Part shown: piece by piece, positions 46,071 to 54,229 of the stretch
Layout: each line of letters opens with the position of its first letter
Position numbering within the stretch: position 1 is the first letter of the stretch
Assembly: GCF_004698125.1 (NCBI RefSeq)
Contig: NZ_ML214298.1
Span: 1,013,972-1,077,971 of the forward strand
Length of the DNA: 64,000 nt
Direction of reading: 5' to 3'
Origin: Halosimplex halophilum
GTDB taxonomy: Archaea > Halobacteriota > Halobacteria > Halobacteriales > Haloarculaceae
The notes under the pieces: generated by a model
Databases searched by the model: none
What the model was told of the DNA's origin: nothing
What the model saw: only the letters and a program-made list of their open reading frames with translations
Made by a program: the position numbers and the translations under genes

Positions 46071-46231
46071 CCCGTGAATTTGGAGTCGGGCGCGGATAAC
46101 CCTGTGGTCGGCACGGTCCGGCCGGCGTCGCCCCGCGGTCGAACCGTTCGGTCGACGCCCCCACGTGTCCGTTCGGTTTCAAAAACGGGCTTCAGCGAAC
46201 GCCTTTACCGACGGCGACCGAGATGTGTGGT

Positions 46232-47995
46232 ATGGCAACGGAGTCCACGGACGGGCCGGACGGCTACGAGGCGGCGGCCGACCTCGACGCGCTCCGCGAG
46301 GACGGGCGGGCGGTGACGACGGTCGGCGGTCACAGCATCGCGCTCTTCCACCACGAAGGGGAGGTGTACGGGGTGGACAACCGCTGTCCGCACATGGGGT
46401 TTCCCCTGTCGAAGGGGACCGTCGAGGACGGGCTGCTGACGTGTCACTGGCACCACGCGCGGTTCGAGCTGTCCTGCGGGGACACGTTCGACATCTGGGC
46501 CGACGACGTGCAGACGTTCCCGACGGCGGTCCGCGAGGGCACGGTGTACGTCGACCCCGACCCCGAGACGGACGTGGCACCGGAGGTCCACTGGCGCAAC
46601 CGACTCGTCGACGGCATGGCCGAGAACCTCTCGCTCGTGCTCGCCAAGAGCGCGATCCACCTCGACGGCCTCGGCGAGGGGTTCGCGACCCCGCTGGAGA
46701 CGGCGGTCGACTTCGGGACGAAGTACCGCGCCGACGGCTGGGGGCGCGGGCTGACCACGCTGGGCGCGATGGCGAACCTCTACGACGAGGTCGACCACGA
46801 CGAGAAACAGCGGGCGATGTTCGTCGGCGTCCGCGAGGTGGCGAGCAACTGCGCGGGCGAGCCCCCCAGGTTCGACCAGTACGCGCTGGACAACGAGGAC
46901 CTCTCGAAGGACCGCCTGAAGTCGTGGTTCCGCGAGACCTGCGAGGTCCGCGACGCGGACGGCGCGGAGCGCTGCCTGCGGGCGGCGACCGCCACGCTCC
47001 CGCCCGAGGACCTCGCCGAGATCCTCGTCGCCGCCGCGACCGACCACCTCTACATGAACAGCAGCCACACGGTCGACTTCATCAACAAAGCGTTCGAGAC
47101 GCTCGACCACGTCGGCTGGGAGAAGGCGCCGGACGTGCTGGCGGCGACGGTCGACACGATCACCGACGGCTCCCGCGCCGAGGAGACGAGTTCCTGGCGC
47201 CAGCCGGTCGACGTGGCCGAACTCTGTTTCGACGCCGACGGCGACATCGCCGAGCTCTCGGCGGCGGGCGCCGGGGAGTCCTGGGAGCGGCCCGACGACT
47301 TCGTCGACCGGCTGCTCGGCGACGATCCCCACGCCATCGACGAGGCGCTCCGGGACGCGGTCCGGAACGGTGCGACGACCGAGCAACTGGCCCACGCGGT
47401 CGCCGTGGCGGCGCTCCGGCGGGTCGCGCACTTCGCGACCAGCAACGAGTTCGGCGACTGGAACACGGTCCATCACACCTTCTCGTTCGCCAACGCGGTC
47501 GAGCGGCTCGCGGGCCGCACCGACGCCGACGACCTGTATCGCGCGTGCTGGCAGGGGGCCATGTCGGTCTACCTGGACCGCTTCCTCAACCAGCCGAAGG
47601 CGCCGCTCCCCGAGGTCGGCGCCGGCGAGGGCGACGACCCCGCGGAGTTGCGCGAGCGGCTGCTGGAGACCTTCGACGAGCAGGGTCGCGTCGACGAGGC
47701 CGGGCGGATCGTCTCCCGCCACTTCGACGCCGGCGGCGATCCCGACCGGCTGAAGCGGACGATGGCCGAGGGGCTCCTGCGGGAGGACGCCGGCTTCCAC
47801 ACCCTCCAGAACGTCGAGGGCGGGTTCGCGCAGTTCGAGAGCGCCGAGAGCGACCGCGAGCGGCGGCTGGCGCTGATCGCCCCCGCGAGGTACATGGCCG
47901 CGCACTTCCCGACCCGACGGGAGGCCGAGCAGACGTTCACCATCGCCGAGCGGCTGTATCGGGGCGAGAACATCCACGAGGCGGCGGACGACTGA
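46232..47995 (+). CDS. Rieske [2Fe-2S] protein with long helical C-terminal domain
   Basis: A 587-residue soluble protein. Residues about 15-110 form a Rieske ferredoxin domain whose cluster ligands are CPHMGF and CHWHHARF. The remaining 470 residues are all-helical with several conserved His/Asn patches (SHTVDFINKAFETLDHVGW, NTVHHTFSFANAVERLAG). They lack the usual catalytic domain of aromatic-ring dioxygenases (no 2-His-1-carboxylate motif recognised). An electron-transfer or oxidoreductase role is inferred. GCCTTTACC about 25-30 bp before ATG 46232 supports that start over the ATG at 46223. Confidence 0.82.
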   Translation: MATESTDGPDGYEAAADLDALREDGRAVTTVGGHSIALFHHEGEVYGVDNRCPHMGFPLSKGTVEDGLLTCHWHHARFELSCGDTFDIWADDVQTFPTAVREGTVYVDPDPETDVAPEVHWRNRLVDGMAENLSLVLAKSAIHLDGLGEGFATPLETAVDFGTKYRADGWGRGLTTLGAMANLYDEVDHDEKQRAMFVGVREVASNCAGEPPRFDQYALDNEDLSKDRLKSWFRETCEVRDADGAERCLRAATATLPPEDLAEILVAAATDHLYMNSSHTVDFINKAFETLDHVGWEKAPDVLAATVDTITDGSRAEETSSWRQPVDVAELCFDADGDIAELSAAGAGESWERPDDFVDRLLGDDPHAIDEALRDAVRNGATTEQLAHAVAVAALRRVAHFATSNEFGDWNTVHHTFSFANAVERLAGRTDADDLYRACWQGAMSVYLDRFLNQPKAPLPEVGAGEGDDPAELRERLLETFDEQGRVDEAGRIVSRHFDAGGDPDRLKRTMAEGLLREDAGFHTLQNVEGGFAQFESAESDRERRLALIAPARYMAAHFPTRREAEQTFTIAERLYRGENIHEAADD

Positions 47996-48162
47996 CGACG
48001 GCGATCGACCCGCGCCCCGCCGGTCGGTTCCGGCCTTGAGATCGCCTGCAGTAGCCTGATTTCGGCCACGGGCCCAGGTGTGTGTGTGAGTTTACACGCC
48101 CGCAGGTCCGCGCGCGGACGGCCGGCCGACGACAGGGCAGCGAGTCCGCGGCGAGCACGCGG

Positions 48163-48771
48163 ATGAGCTTCCTCACGGTACTCCCGCTCGCGGTCGTGAT
48201 GGTCGCCGGACCGCAGTTCCTCAGCGCCGTCTTCCTGGCGACGAGTCGCGACTGGCGGCGCAACTCCGCGCTGTTCGTCTCCGGGGCGGCGGTCTCCATC
48301 TCGGCGGTGGTCGCGCTGACCTACCTCCTCGGCGGCGTGTCAGCGGTCGGGGGCGAGGGGTCGAACGGCCCGCTCTCGACGGTGGTGGTCGTGCTGATCG
48401 TCGCGGCGATGATATCCACGTTCCTCGGGCGCGCGGAGTCCGAGCCGCCGAAGTGGATGGGGAAACTGGAGCGGGCCTCCCCGCGCTTTTCCTTCCGGCT
48501 CGGCTTTCTCCTGCTCGGCGTGTTCCCGACCGACATCGTCACGTCGGTCGCCGTCGGGTCCTATCTCGCCGCGAACGACCTCCCGCTGGTCGACGCCGCC
48601 CCGTTCGTCGCGCTTACGCTGCTGTTGCTCGCGCTTCCCTCCCTCGCGGTGGCGCTGCTCGGCGCTCGCGCCGAGACGTTGCTCCCCCGCGTCCGCGACT
48701 GGATGCACGACAGCGCCTGGGTCGTCAACGAGGTCGTCCTCGCGTTCTTCCTCGTGTTGGTGCTCACCTGA
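48163..48771 (+). CDS. GAP-family membrane protein (Sap/sulfolipid-1-addressing type)
   Basis: Membrane protein of 202 residues with six predicted spans, starting LTVLPLAVVMVAGPQFLSAV and including FRLGFLLLGVFPTDIVTSVAVG. The layout resembles the GAP (LysE-superfamily-like) proteins known from mycobacteria as Sap. Those are linked to export of lipids or small molecules; the function here is inferred only. The ATG at 48163 sits directly before the first span. A GTG 27 codons upstream would add an Arg-rich segment and is less likely. Confidence 0.65.
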   Translation: MSFLTVLPLAVVMVAGPQFLSAVFLATSRDWRRNSALFVSGAAVSISAVVALTYLLGGVSAVGGEGSNGPLSTVVVVLIVAAMISTFLGRAESEPPKWMGKLERASPRFSFRLGFLLLGVFPTDIVTSVAVGSYLAANDLPLVDAAPFVALTLLLLALPSLAVALLGARAETLLPRVRDWMHDSAWVVNEVVLAFFLVLVLT

Positions 48772-48879: not shown

Positions 48880-50523
48880 TCAACCGCGCCGCGTGGCCGC
48901 GAAGAGACCGGCCAGGAGCGCGACCGAGGCGGCCGCGACGCCGAATCCGGGACCGTCGCCGGACGTGGCCGCCGTCGCGGTGCGGCCGGCGGTCGCCGTT
49001 CCGGTGGTGTCCGCGGTGGTCGGCGTCGCAGTCGACGTGCCAGCCTTCGTGCCCGCCCCCGTCCGCGTGGCCGTCTTCGGAGTCGTCGGCGGCTCGGGCG
49101 GCGCGGTCGCCGCCGGGGTTGCCGTCTGTGTCGCGGTGGGTCTCGCTGTCGCTGTCCCGGTGGCGGTCGGCTCGGCCGTCGCGGTCGGCGTGGGCGTCGG
49201 AGTGACCGTGGTCACGCCGGCGCCGTCGACCCCGAACTCGACGGAGAGTTCGCCGTACTCCGTCTTCGGCACGTCGGCGGTCGTCGTGAACTCGGTGTCC
49301 GGCGGGCGGCCGTACTCGCCGTCGCCGTCGGCGTCCCAGAGGAGTTCCAGGTCCACCGATCCGCCCGGTGATCCGTCGAGCCCCTCGAACGCGACGGTCT
49401 GCTCGCTTCGCCCCTCCGGGACGACCGCCTCGCGGCTGTAGTACTCGCCTCCGCTCCTGAGGTCGACGACGAACAGCGCCCCGTCGGGGACGCGGATCGA
49501 CGCGTTCACGCGCAGCGTCCACGAGTCCGCGCCCGACTCGACGGCCGTCGCCGCGAGGTCCGACCAGCGCGGCTCCGGCCCGACGACGACGCGGCGCTCC
49601 CAGACCGTCCTGTTCCCGTTCGTCACCCGGAGGGTGAACCGCTCGCGGTCGGCCGTCGAGAGGCCGGTCAGCCACGCGTCGAACTCCGACCGCGAGCGCT
49701 CGGGGTCGGCGGCCGCGGAGGCGTTCGCGGTCGTGGTCACGGTGTCGTCGGCCAGCACCGTCCCGTTCGACCCGACCGCCGCGACCTCGACGGTCCGCCC
49801 GGGCAGGAGGTTCGTGTACCCCGACAGTATCGCCTCGTCGGCGCCCGCGTCGATCCGGGCCGGCCCCCGCCCGCTCGTCCGGAGGCCCGCCGTCGGCGAG
49901 TCGACGGTCGCGTCCGGGCCGACGAAGGCGAAGTTGTCTTCGAGCGGCGGCCCCTCCGGGCGTTCGAGCGTCACCTCGAAGTCGTCCCAGTCGGGGAACG
50001 ACGGGAACCGCTCGTCGCTGTCCCGTTCGGTCACCACGATGTCGCTCGTGTCGACGACCGCGTACGTCGTCGCGGTCCGGCGGTCCCGGACGACGCGCGT
50101 CTCGCTCCGTTCGAGCGCGATCTCGTAGGGCCGGCGGTTCGGTCCCACGAGCGCCCGGACCGTCAGGTTCGTCCGCGACTCCTCCAGCGCGGCGAAGAAC
50201 CGCTCGGTCGCGGTCGCGCCGTCGGCGGCCGCGACCGACTCGTTCAGCGCCTCGGACCGGATCCGGACCACGAGCGTATCGCCGTAGACGACGGTGTCGT
50301 CGTAGCCGGGTTCGGTGAGCGTCCCGTTCGATCGCAGCGCGCGAACGTCGCCCGCGTCGGCGATCCGGTCGTCGACGGACCCGTTCGCGGCGAGCACTGT
50401 GAGGTTCGCGCCGGACTGGCCGCCGTCGGCCGCGACACCGCCGGCGACGGCGGCGCCCGCCAGTCCCACGAGCACCAGCGCGGCGAGCGCTGTCCGGTTC
50501 GCGGTCGGTGAGCGGAGGGCCAT
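48880..50523 (-). CDS. PGF-CTERM surface glycoprotein
   Basis: Exported 547-residue cell-surface protein. A signal peptide (ALAALVLVGLAGAAVAGGVA) is followed by beta-rich domains with many N-glycosylation sequons (NLT, NGS, NGT, NES). A Thr/Pro/Ala-rich stalk covers about 435-515. The C-terminus DGPGFGVAAASVALLAGLFA followed by TRRG is a textbook PGF-CTERM, recognised and processed by archaeosortase A for lipid attachment. Function of the outer domains is unknown; BGTF/DUF7827-like surface domains are the nearest comparison I can offer, from memory only. Confidence 0.82.
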   Translation of the reverse strand: MALRSPTANRTALAALVLVGLAGAAVAGGVAADGGQSGANLTVLAANGSVDDRIADAGDVRALRSNGTLTEPGYDDTVVYGDTLVVRIRSEALNESVAAADGATATERFFAALEESRTNLTVRALVGPNRRPYEIALERSETRVVRDRRTATTYAVVDTSDIVVTERDSDERFPSFPDWDDFEVTLERPEGPPLEDNFAFVGPDATVDSPTAGLRTSGRGPARIDAGADEAILSGYTNLLPGRTVEVAAVGSNGTVLADDTVTTTANASAAADPERSRSEFDAWLTGLSTADRERFTLRVTNGNRTVWERRVVVGPEPRWSDLAATAVESGADSWTLRVNASIRVPDGALFVVDLRSGGEYYSREAVVPEGRSEQTVAFEGLDGSPGGSVDLELLWDADGDGEYGRPPDTEFTTTADVPKTEYGELSVEFGVDGAGVTTVTPTPTPTATAEPTATGTATARPTATQTATPAATAPPEPPTTPKTATRTGAGTKAGTSTATPTTADTTGTATAGRTATAATSGDGPGFGVAAASVALLAGLFAATRRG

Positions 50524-50621
50524 ATCGCGGCGTGTCGGCCGAGCGAAATAAATGCCTTCTGTCCGGCGAGCGCCCCGCCGACCCCCGACAGCTAACTACC
50601 CGGCGCGAGTGGTTGTCGGCA

Positions 50622-51146
50622 ATGACGAGGGGTCCCGGACTGGTCGGCGACGAGCGCGGCGGCGTCGAGCGGTGGGTCGTCTGGCTGGTCGCCGTCGCGG
50701 TCGTCGCCGGGCTCGTCGGCTCGGTCGTCTACCTCGGCGACGAACTCCGCCGCGACAGCCCCGGCGCCGACTTCTCCGTGGCGTTCGACGCCGAAGCCGG
50801 ATCGGTGACCGTCGAACACGCCGGCGGCGATTCGATCTCCGATCGGACGACCGAGCGGCTGTCCGTCGTCGTCCTCGACAGTTCGGCCGGGACGAGCGCG
50901 GAAGTGGTGTGGGTCGGCGACTCGCCCGGCGCGACCAAACGGGGGGTGGGGTATCCGGTCGCTCCCGGCGACTCGCTGACGGTCGACGACCCCAGCGTGG
51001 ACGCCGACGGCGACGGGAACTACCTGGACGCCGAGCGGAGCGTGGGGTTCTACCTGGAGTCCGGGGACAGCGTTCGGGTGGTGTGGACCGGCTCGATGCG
51101 CGGGACGAGACAGTCGGTGACGCTCGCGAACGCAACGCTGGAGTGA
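50622..51146 (+). CDS. Pilin-like single-span protein, paralogue of 2698-3060
   Basis: A 174-residue protein with a short charged N-terminus (MTRGPGLVGDERGGVER), one hydrophobic segment (VVWLVAVAVVAGLVGSVVYL, about 19-38) and an extracellular beta domain. The core VTVEHAGG and the near-terminal VRVVWTGSMRG repeat the layout of the protein at 2698-3060 (VRITHAGG, VRIVWSPGRG), with about 50 extra residues between. No clear prepilin peptidase site is visible. Divergent from the PGF-CTERM gene 98 bp away; repeat copy 3 begins about 50 bp past the stop. Confidence 0.62.
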   Translation: MTRGPGLVGDERGGVERWVVWLVAVAVVAGLVGSVVYLGDELRRDSPGADFSVAFDAEAGSVTVEHAGGDSISDRTTERLSVVVLDSSAGTSAEVVWVGDSPGATKRGVGYPVAPGDSLTVDDPSVDADGDGNYLDAERSVGFYLESGDSVRVVWTGSMRGTRQSVTLANATLE

Positions 51147-51599: not shown

Positions 51600-52793
51600 T
51601 CAGACGCCCTTCCGCATCAGGTGGCTGCGGAGCACGTCGTTCTCCTTGGTGCCGGCGACGGGGTTGACGAGCACGACCACGTCGTCGCTCCCGAGGTGGC
51701 CGCCGTCGGCGAGTTCTTGCGCGGCGGCGGCGCCGACGCCGCCGGTCGCGCTGGCCTCGATACCCTCGGCGTTGAGCTGGACCGCCGCCTCGAGCGCGTC
51801 GTCGTCGTCCGCGCCGACCGCCCAGCCGCCGGTGTCGCGGACGGCCTCCAGGGCGAGCGCGCCGCCGGCGGGGTCCGGGACCTCCAGCGAGCCGACGAGC
51901 GTGTCCGGGCGCTCCCACGCCTCGGTGTCGTCGTCGCCCGCGTCGTCGGCGGCGACGACCGGCGCGCAGTTCTCGGGCTGTGCGACGTGCAGGGCGGGTG
52001 CGTCGTCGACGAGCCCCGCGGCCTGCAACTGCTCGGCGGCGAGGTGGCTGCCGACGACGCCGAGGCCGTGACCGGTTGGGTGGACGACGGCGTCGGGGAC
52101 CTCCCAGTCGAGTTGCTCGACGACCTCGAACAGGAGCGTCTTGGCGCCCTCGTGGCGGTAGGGGGTGTCGAACGGCGCCAGCGAGTGCCAGTCGGTGTTG
52201 TCGTCGCTCATCGCGCCCTCGAAGGCGTCGACGGCGTCCGGGTAGCGGCCCTCGACGACGCTCATGTCGCCGCCGTGGACGTTGGTCATCGCCTTGGCGA
52301 CGAACGTCGAGCGCGTCGGGACGAACGCCTCCGACTTCAGTCCCGCGCGGGCGGCGTAGGCGGCGGCGCTCTGGCCCGCGTCGCCCGTGGTCGGGAGCGC
52401 GACTTTCTCCGCGCCGTGGTCGCGGGCGGCGGTCACGGCGAGGGCTGTCCCGCGGTCGGCGGTCGTCCCGGTCGGGTTCGCGCCCTCGTCTTTGACGTAG
52501 ACGGCGCCGACGCCGAGTGCCTCGGCGAACTCCGGCGCGGGGATCAGCGGCGTCGTCCCCTCGTCGAGCGTCACGAGCGAGTCGGCGGGGAACGGCAGGA
52601 GGTCGGAAAAGCGAGCGATGCCGTCGAACCGCGCCGCGCCGAGCGATTCGCGGGTCACCTCGGCGGCGTCGGCGTCGTAGCTCGCGCGGAGGACGCCGCC
52701 GCAGTCGGGACAGCGCCGCGGGGCCGCCGCGGGGTCGTGGGTCGCCGCGCAGTCGGCGCAGACGAGGCCGTCGAGCGACGTGGTCGTGTCCAT
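51600..52793 (-). CDS. Threonine synthase-like protein lacking the PLP lysine
   Basis: A 397-residue member of the fold-type II PLP family most similar to threonine synthase. An N-terminal zinc ribbon (CADC and CPDC, about 12-31) precedes the catalytic domain. Where ThrC has NPTGSFKDRG with the Schiff-base lysine, this protein reads NPTGTTADRG: Ala112 replaces Lys. The phosphate-binding glycine loop is kept in altered form (TTGDAGQSAAAY). The protein probably cannot carry out normal PLP chemistry, and may be a regulatory or divergent paralogue. A true thrC should exist elsewhere in the genome. Its 3' end abuts repeat copy 3. Confidence 0.82.
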   Translation of the reverse strand: MDTTTSLDGLVCADCAATHDPAAAPRRCPDCGGVLRASYDADAAEVTRESLGAARFDGIARFSDLLPFPADSLVTLDEGTTPLIPAPEFAEALGVGAVYVKDEGANPTGTTADRGTALAVTAARDHGAEKVALPTTGDAGQSAAAYAARAGLKSEAFVPTRSTFVAKAMTNVHGGDMSVVEGRYPDAVDAFEGAMSDDNTDWHSLAPFDTPYRHEGAKTLLFEVVEQLDWEVPDAVVHPTGHGLGVVGSHLAAEQLQAAGLVDDAPALHVAQPENCAPVVAADDAGDDDTEAWERPDTLVGSLEVPDPAGGALALEAVRDTGGWAVGADDDDALEAAVQLNAEGIEASATGGVGAAAAQELADGGHLGSDDVVVLVNPVAGTKENDVLRSHLMRKGV

Positions 52794-52936
52794 ACCCGGA
52801 GCGCGGGATGCCATCGACTAAGCACTGTCCGTTCGCGGCCGCTGGGGCGGCGAACGGGTTCGGGGCTCGGCAGGAGGCCCCTCCGCGAGCGGACGGAGAC
52901 AGGGGGCGTTTAGTGGGTCGGGCCGAAGGGACCGGT

Positions 52937-54229
52937 ATGAGCGAGGTCGTCATCGTCGGCGGCGGACTGGCGGGCCTGGTCGCGGCGCGGCGCCTGGCCC
53001 GGGACGAGGCGGACGTGACGCTGTTCGAACGCCGCGCGGAACTCGGGGGACGGGTCCGCTCGCGCGAGGTCGACGGCTTCACCCTCGACCGCGGGTTCCA
53101 GGTCCTCTTTTCGGCCTACCCGGCCGTCCGCGAGGAACTCGATCTGGGCGCCCTCGATCTCCGCACGTTCGCCCCCGGGGCGACCATCGCCCGCCCGGAC
53201 CACCGCTCGACGCTCGCCGACCCGTTCCGCGCGCCGCTGGCCGCCGTCGAGTCGGCGATGAACCCAGACGTGACCCTGCTGGACAAGCTCCGCGTGCTCA
53301 GGCTCCGCCGTGAACTCGGCAACGCCGACCCCGACGAGCTCCTCGACGGCCCGACCGAGAGCATCCGCGAGTACCTCGACGGGAAGGGGTTCTCCGAGAA
53401 GTTCGTCGAGAACTTCGCCGCGCCGTTCTACGGCGGTATCACGCTCGACCGCTCGCTGTCGACCGACGCCGGCGTCTTCCGCTACACCTTCTCGATGCTC
53501 TCGCGCGGGAAGACCGCCGTCCCCGCCGACGGCATGGGCGCGATCCCGCGGCAACTCGCCGCCCGCGCCCGCGAGGCCGGTGTGTCCATCCGGACCGGCA
53601 CCGAGGTCACCGCGGTCGAAGGAGCGGCCGGCGACGGGGCTACGGGGGAGGGGGGTACCGGTAAGGCGACCGTCGAGACCGGGGGCGAGACGGTCGACGC
53701 CGACGCCGTCGTGGTCGCGACCGACCCGCGGACGGCCCGCCAGCTGACCGGCGTCGAGTCGATCCCGACCGACGCGCGGGGCTGTGTCACCCAGTACTTC
53801 CGGACGCGCGAACACCGCTCGCTCGACACCGGCCACCGGCTCGTCCTCAACGCGGTCGACAGCTGTCCCAACACCGTCGCGCCCCTCTCGACGGTCGCGC
53901 CGGAGTACGCCCCCGACGGCCACGCCCTCCTCTCGGCGACGACGCTCGGCGTCCCCGACCGGAGCGACGAGGAACTCGCCACGGCGGTCCGCGACGCCCT
54001 GGTCACCTGGTACCCCGAACACCGCTTCGACGACCTCGAACTGCTCGCGACCGACCGCGTCGAGTTCGCCCAGTTCGACCAGCCGCCGGGCTTCCGCGAC
54101 GGCCTCCCCGCAGCCGACGCCCCCGAGGGCCCGGTCTACCTCGCCGGCGACTACACGGAGTGGTCCTCCATCCAGGGCGCGCTGGAGAGCGGCCGGGCCG
54201 CAGCCGAGGCGGTCTCGGACGACATCTGA
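52937..54229 (+). CDS. FAD-dependent amine oxidase/protoporphyrinogen-oxidase-like oxidoreductase
   Basis: Flavoprotein of 430 residues of the FAD-dependent amine-oxidase/phytoene-desaturase superfamily. The dinucleotide-binding motif VIVGGGLAGLVAARRLA lies at about 5-21, followed by the family block ERRAELGGRVRSREVDGFTL. The C-terminal FAD-contact segment is VYLAGDYTEWSSIQGALESG followed by RAAAEAV (about 395-421). Substrate is not determined; carotenoid, quinone or porphyrin-type compounds are options. The ATG at 52937 immediately precedes the first beta-strand. Confidence 0.88.
   Translation: MSEVVIVGGGLAGLVAARRLARDEADVTLFERRAELGGRVRSREVDGFTLDRGFQVLFSAYPAVREELDLGALDLRTFAPGATIARPDHRSTLADPFRAPLAAVESAMNPDVTLLDKLRVLRLRRELGNADPDELLDGPTESIREYLDGKGFSEKFVENFAAPFYGGITLDRSLSTDAGVFRYTFSMLSRGKTAVPADGMGAIPRQLAARAREAGVSIRTGTEVTAVEGAAGDGATGEGGTGKATVETGGETVDADAVVVATDPRTARQLTGVESIPTDARGCVTQYFRTREHRSLDTGHRLVLNAVDSCPNTVAPLSTVAPEYAPDGHALLSATTLGVPDRSDEELATAVRDALVTWYPEHRFDDLELLATDRVEFAQFDQPPGFRDGLPAADAPEGPVYLAGDYTEWSSIQGALESGRAAAEAVSDDI

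Follow-up and report, generated by a model that had tools for sequence, protein, structure and literature searches.

A threonine synthase-type protein of haloarchaea without the pyridoxal phosphate lysine, a candidate pseudoenzyme

What is kept, and for what role, when a protein of the threonine synthase (ThrS, ThrC) type no longer has the lysine that forms the Schiff base with pyridoxal 5'-phosphate (PLP)? The question is raised by a gene on the minus strand at positions 51600-52793 of the window, by which we mean the whole stretch of 64,000 nucleotides analysed from a Halosimplex relative (Halosimplex halophilum, contig NZ_ML214298.1). The reading frame gives 397 amino acids followed by a stop, contains NPTGTTADRG, and was classed as a lysine-less fold II (PALP) protein from its translation, PALP profile, alignment and structure model. 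The start codon at 52793 was set by comparison with homologues; an ATG in the same frame at 52814 would lengthen the protein by seven residues. The product is 93% identical to proteins of H. pelagicum and H. carlsbadense.

Counting codons from 52793, the minus-strand GCC at 52458-52460 encodes Ala112, and in a phmmer alignment this residue lies opposite Lys61 of Thermus thermophilus (Tth) ThrS. Translation, codon position and alignment thus bear out what an earlier note had claimed, namely an alanine in place of the PLP lysine. The same counting puts a remnant of the PLP phosphate loop, HPTGHGLG (residues 238-245), at 52059-52082 on the minus strand. Tth Asn87 and Thr317, which we take to be PLP contacts, have Asp138 and Pro378 as their counterparts here, a further change beyond Ala112 and this loop. 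All Tth numbering was counted on the alignment. An N-terminal four-cysteine ribbon (C12, C15, C28, C31) is present.

Membership of the fold type II (Pfam PALP) superfamily is clear from the profile, with 197.7 bits against a cut-off of 35, and from the predicted fold. The AlphaFold (AF2) model of the whole chain has a mean pLDDT of 97.5 and a pTM of 0.94, and a lysine-bearing orthologue gave a similar model (pLDDT 95.7); the input alignments for AlphaFold comprised 119 rows, after thinning at 82% identity, and 39 rows. Among the best 12 structure matches, 11 are threonine synthase entries with Z between 41.2 and 50.1, including Arabidopsis ThrS 2c2b_A (Z 50.1 over 390 residues) and 1v7c_A (Z 46.5 over 328 residues), and the E. 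coli enzyme 1vb3 scores Z 36.0. The model thus predicts a complete threonine synthase fold.

As a threonine synthase the protein falls short. The best NCBIfam model, PRK08197 'threonine synthase', scores 293.9 bits, under its equivalog cut-off of 303; the lysine of NPTGSFKDRG is Ala112, and the phosphate loop (GNAGN, or GGGVG in orthologues) reads PTGHGLG. With ThrC of T. thermophilus (1uim/1v7c), B. subtilis (6nmx) and Arabidopsis (2c2b) it has in common the fold, the NPTG and DRG flanks and the residues facing Tth Lys116 and Arg160, whereas the Schiff-base lysine and the phosphate loop are gone, and the residues facing Asn87 and Thr317 are changed here and kept in part of the clade.

The earlier note had dismissed a sequencing error, and this is now ruled out because all eight Halosimplex-group sequences compared lack the lysine and read TTAD or TAAD. 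For a wider view we aligned 189 distinct homologues, identical copies and matches spanning less than 250 residues having been dropped beforehand. The position holds K in 83 rows and another residue in 106 (A 33, L 26, T 14, V 12, R 5, Y 4, F 3, D 2, S 2, and E, G, H, I and Q one each). All 106 rows are haloarchaeal, with no outgroup row among them, and four further lysine-less members were found beyond the alignment (L241, L245, L246 and L219, from genomes G013, G042, G057 and G197). The alignment of homologues that had been called for therefore finds the absence of the lysine clade-wide, although the replacing residue varies. Far from being an error or a peculiarity of a single strain, the loss extends through much of the order.

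Lysine and glycine phosphate loop covary. In 178 rows (11 outgroup rows being left out) both are absent 105 times and both present 70 times, three rows being mixed, and the loop reads YPTGGGVG in nearly every lysine-bearing orthologue. The 105 lysine-less rows have given up F111, K112, K217, G242 and G309, while 70 columns remain at least 93% constant, including N106, T108, G109, D113, R114, K167, R213 and D330. The flanks N106, T108, G109, D113 and R114 stand at 94-100% and P107 at 92%; K167 and R213, the counterparts of Tth Lys116 and Arg160 (presumably substrate-phosphate contacts), stand at 99% and 98%. The Asn facing Tth Asn87 is found in 61% of lysine-less rows, the Thr facing Thr317 in half of them, and all four ribbon cysteines in 90 of the 106. 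Two rows, L060 and L184, have K at the Schiff-base position together with a loop that has lost its glycines (YPLEGTEG, YPLDGTAG).

The lysine-bearing haloarchaeal orthologue is of the PRK08197 type (NPTG[ST]FKDRG, PTGGGVG), has the four-cysteine ribbon, occupies the same chromosomal place in several genomes and is 39-57% identical to the window protein (median 52%, 72 rows). It differs in having kept the lysine, the glycine loop and K217, and in changing more slowly where both forms occur.

These conserved columns bear on whether the protein might still use PLP, either bound without an internal aldimine or held by a Schiff base on lysine 101, 167 or 218. Four ancestral lysines (101, 167, 218, 383) are still common in lysine-less rows, and K101, K167 and K218 occur in 95%, 99% and 92% of the 106. 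However, they are equally conserved in lysine-bearing orthologues, so that a comparison of alignment columns between the two sets found no newly fixed lysine, which speaks against a re-sited Schiff base. Binding without the lysine has precedent: as far as the accessible parts of the PDB records go, fold II lysine mutants can still hold PLP as an external aldimine (O-acetylserine sulfhydrylase, OASS, K41A, 1d6s; tryptophan synthase TrpB K87T, 2tys). The lysine is replaced there as in the window protein, but those are man-made single changes, whereas in haloarchaea lysine and loop have both changed in nature. With the glycine loop gone too, we consider a surviving PLP protein unlikely.

A new enzyme working in the old cleft without PLP would agree with N171, R183, P296, D297, G301 and E304, which vary less in the lysine-less clade than among 69 lysine-bearing rows. 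The lysine position itself, on the other hand, accepts many residues (A, L, T, V, R, Y, F and others), and such an enzyme appears very unlikely to us.

Occurrence was assessed in 253 sampled genomes of the order, each at least 95% complete. A match at 4.9e-70 or better, lysine-bearing members included, is present in 251, and one of the other two, G013, carries a divergent lysine-less copy; the second, G192, gave five family-profile matches, none resembling a family member. In a nearer sample of 59 genomes searched at 1e-60, 47 had one match, seven had two (one being a split gene) and five had none. The intact-loop DNA motif was found in 119 of the 253 genomes and was missing from 134; the count permits no mismatch and is therefore an estimate of the lysine-bearing state. 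Outside the order, the matches listed for a phylum sample of 120 genomes reach at most 391 bits with the family profile, and the best of them, L233, has both lysine and glycine loop. The profile score cannot settle absence there, because divergent lysine-less members can fall below canonical ThrC, as they do in G013 (294 bits), G042 (230 bits) and G057 (198 bits).

No copy in the genome under study has the glycine loop. The search for other thrC copies that the earlier note had proposed returned three more distant lysine-bearing PALP paralogues elsewhere in the genome (L002, L003, L004), and since L002 is a canonical ThrC-type copy (NPTGSFKDRG, PVGNAGN), threonine synthesis need not depend on the window gene. 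The word 'paralogue', used for the gene before, holds with respect to these three distant proteins, but in many genomes the relation is that of one locus in another state and not of a spare copy. Threonine synthase is a dimer, and a dead subunit could pair with the true enzyme and tune its activity; the presence of L002 and the two other lysine-bearing proteins would allow this. The window protein shares, however, no more than 32-34% identity with L002, L003 and L004 and is encoded elsewhere, which makes such pairing quite unlikely.

The gene is maintained. For 28 pairs of eight Halosimplex-group sequences dN/dS is 0.110-0.283, and these genes are under purifying selection. Seven genomes with both forms gave 21 matched genome pairs, and in all 21 the lysine-less form has a higher dN than the lysine-bearing one, though a dN below its own dS; mean column entropy is 1.52 for lysine-less and 0.91 for lysine-bearing rows. 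Because of this higher dN and entropy, part of the change is to be seen as relaxation. Drift toward gene loss would account for a protein that changes faster than its lysine-bearing paralogue of the same genomes, but with dN/dS well below 1, no internal stop in family genes among the matches listed and the near-universal occurrence given above, it is highly improbable. The gene thus combines clade-wide loss of a catalytic residue with maintenance, as in a pseudoenzyme. The 'maintained protein with a new role' of the earlier note agrees, at the level of sequence, with purifying selection, complete predicted fold and clade-wide lysine absence.

Upstream of the gene, and separated from it by 143 bases (52794-52936) that presumably form a shared promoter region, an FAD-dependent oxidoreductase of 430 amino acids (PF01593) is encoded divergently at 52937-54229 on the plus strand. 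Neighbours were counted around the 128 family genes for which 4.9 kb of sequence or more was available, the flanks often being only 2 kb. A homologue of the oxidoreductase, the most widespread neighbour found, lies at 69 of these loci, always on the opposite strand to the family gene (five of the 69 were scored 'down' owing to very long mechanical ORFs). It accompanies 54 of 78 lysine-less and 15 of 50 lysine-bearing genes. The Fisher p of 2.3e-5 overstates this difference because related loci count separately, flanks are short and the lysine-bearing set includes eight bacterial outgroup loci. The FAD gene gave a single match in 28 of 30 genomes of the order checked, the other two being incomplete genomes of 0.9-1.1 Mb. 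Since it is also present in G192, where no family member was found, the oxidoreductase does not need the family protein everywhere. Among its best 25 NCBIfam models there was no fitting equivalog, the top one being HpnE with 118 bits against a cut-off of 283.

Lysine-less and lysine-bearing genes occupy the same chromosomal place in several genomes, so that the window protein belongs by position to the PRK08197-type orthologue group. The order aIF2a, PAC2, DnaJ, family gene, LysE, HD surrounds the lysine-bearing L087 and L091 as well as the lysine-less L062 and L086, and in families f4 and f12 the space in between often contains genes for a GDT1 protein and a DtxR-like regulator; LysE, HD and GDT1 were named by Pfam from one representative each, and PAC2, DnaJ, aIF2a and the DtxR-like regulator by eye. 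For the window gene itself, positional orthology is based on the common divergent FAD neighbour, the block being that of other members in both states. The LysE-type exporter occurs at 35 of the 128 loci, 25 of them lysine-less, and was not found at Halosimplex loci.

How often was the lysine lost? A FastTree run with columns 109-112 left out groups 105 lysine-less rows with three K rows (support 0.999). A careful tree of 84 rows, from which 23 active-site columns had been removed, needs six changes, at least four of them forced by starred branches. Holding 57 lysine-less rows together with the K rows L085, L060 and L184 (L176 and L082 being left out of the grouping) was not rejected by the AU test (p 0.518), the constrained tree gaining 0.69 log units over the free one. 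Most losses would thus fit one old event.

A single clean loss does not account for all rows, L176 and L219 being placed among K rows in FastTree; for the bulk it was not rejected. L176 (T) stands beside L177 (K), 89% identical and of the same genus code, and L219 (R) stands among K rows of genera g44 and g47 (support 0.895-0.947). These two losses, K to T and K to R in genera otherwise K, look young and separate from the bulk, and the lysine was therefore probably lost at least three times. K rows also fall among lysine-less ones, namely L060, L184 and L085. The last (genome G029) has a complete active site with K and GGG loop, was placed with lysine-less rows of its own genus g4, and shows windowed identities of 0.71 overall to both sides; in a later FastTree the g4 group including L085 moves to the family base. 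Its active site was regained, recombined or never lost.

A function without PLP chemistry is the simplest account of a near-universal family with repeated lysine loss. We lean, with reserve, towards a pseudoenzyme without PLP, derived in place from an active enzyme and kept for a non-catalytic role. Judging from the residues lost, the fold would no longer hold PLP as an internal aldimine and the old chemistry would be gone. Since hardly any genome lacks the family although its lysine was lost repeatedly, the non-catalytic function may already have been present before the loss, in an ancestor with the lysine. The old substrate cleft might then bind a small amino-acid-like or phosphorylated ligand, and open/closed movement on binding might control a partner protein within a small amino-acid module, the best candidates being the divergent FAD oxidoreductase and the sometimes adjoining LysE-type exporter. 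Ligand binding with control of a partner is the weakest step of the proposal, and we offer it tentatively.

Going further, the lysine-bearing protein could already be bifunctional, its PLP half dispensable and shed several times independently, which would make the family an order-wide set of cofactor-free fold II sensors; the order's need would then be the non-catalytic function shared with the oxidoreductase. This extension we think rather doubtful.

Our search of the accessible literature found no description of a lysine-less haloarchaeal threonine synthase-like family, and the accessible part of PMC11237513 has no bearing on the function of the window-gene family. A moonlighting ThrC of Microcystis (PMC12172450) resembles the window protein as a ThrC-type protein with a second role, but according to the part of that article available to us it is an active PLP enzyme with an extra deaminase activity, unlike the present reading. 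A transposon mutant of H. volcanii thrC3 (HVO_2969) was restored by glycine, serine and threonine together, as stated in the accessible part of PMC4300041; that gene may or may not be of the same haloarchaeal PALP type. Pseudoenzymes are well known already. Here, about half of the order's sampled genomes apparently carry a mostly single-copy PLP-enzyme family in its lysine-less state alone, and the two states at the same chromosomal place constitute a natural experiment on the role of an enzyme besides catalysis. Automatic 'threonine synthase' labels on lysine-less proteins are unsafe.

Three plus-strand genes on the downstream side of the window gene were also noted. Positions 50508-51146 match the archaeal type IV pilin N-terminal model, a SfLAP-type protein is encoded at 48082-48771, about 3 kb downstream of the gene, and 46223-47995 encodes a 590-residue protein that starts with a Rieske domain, its long remainder having no Pfam match.
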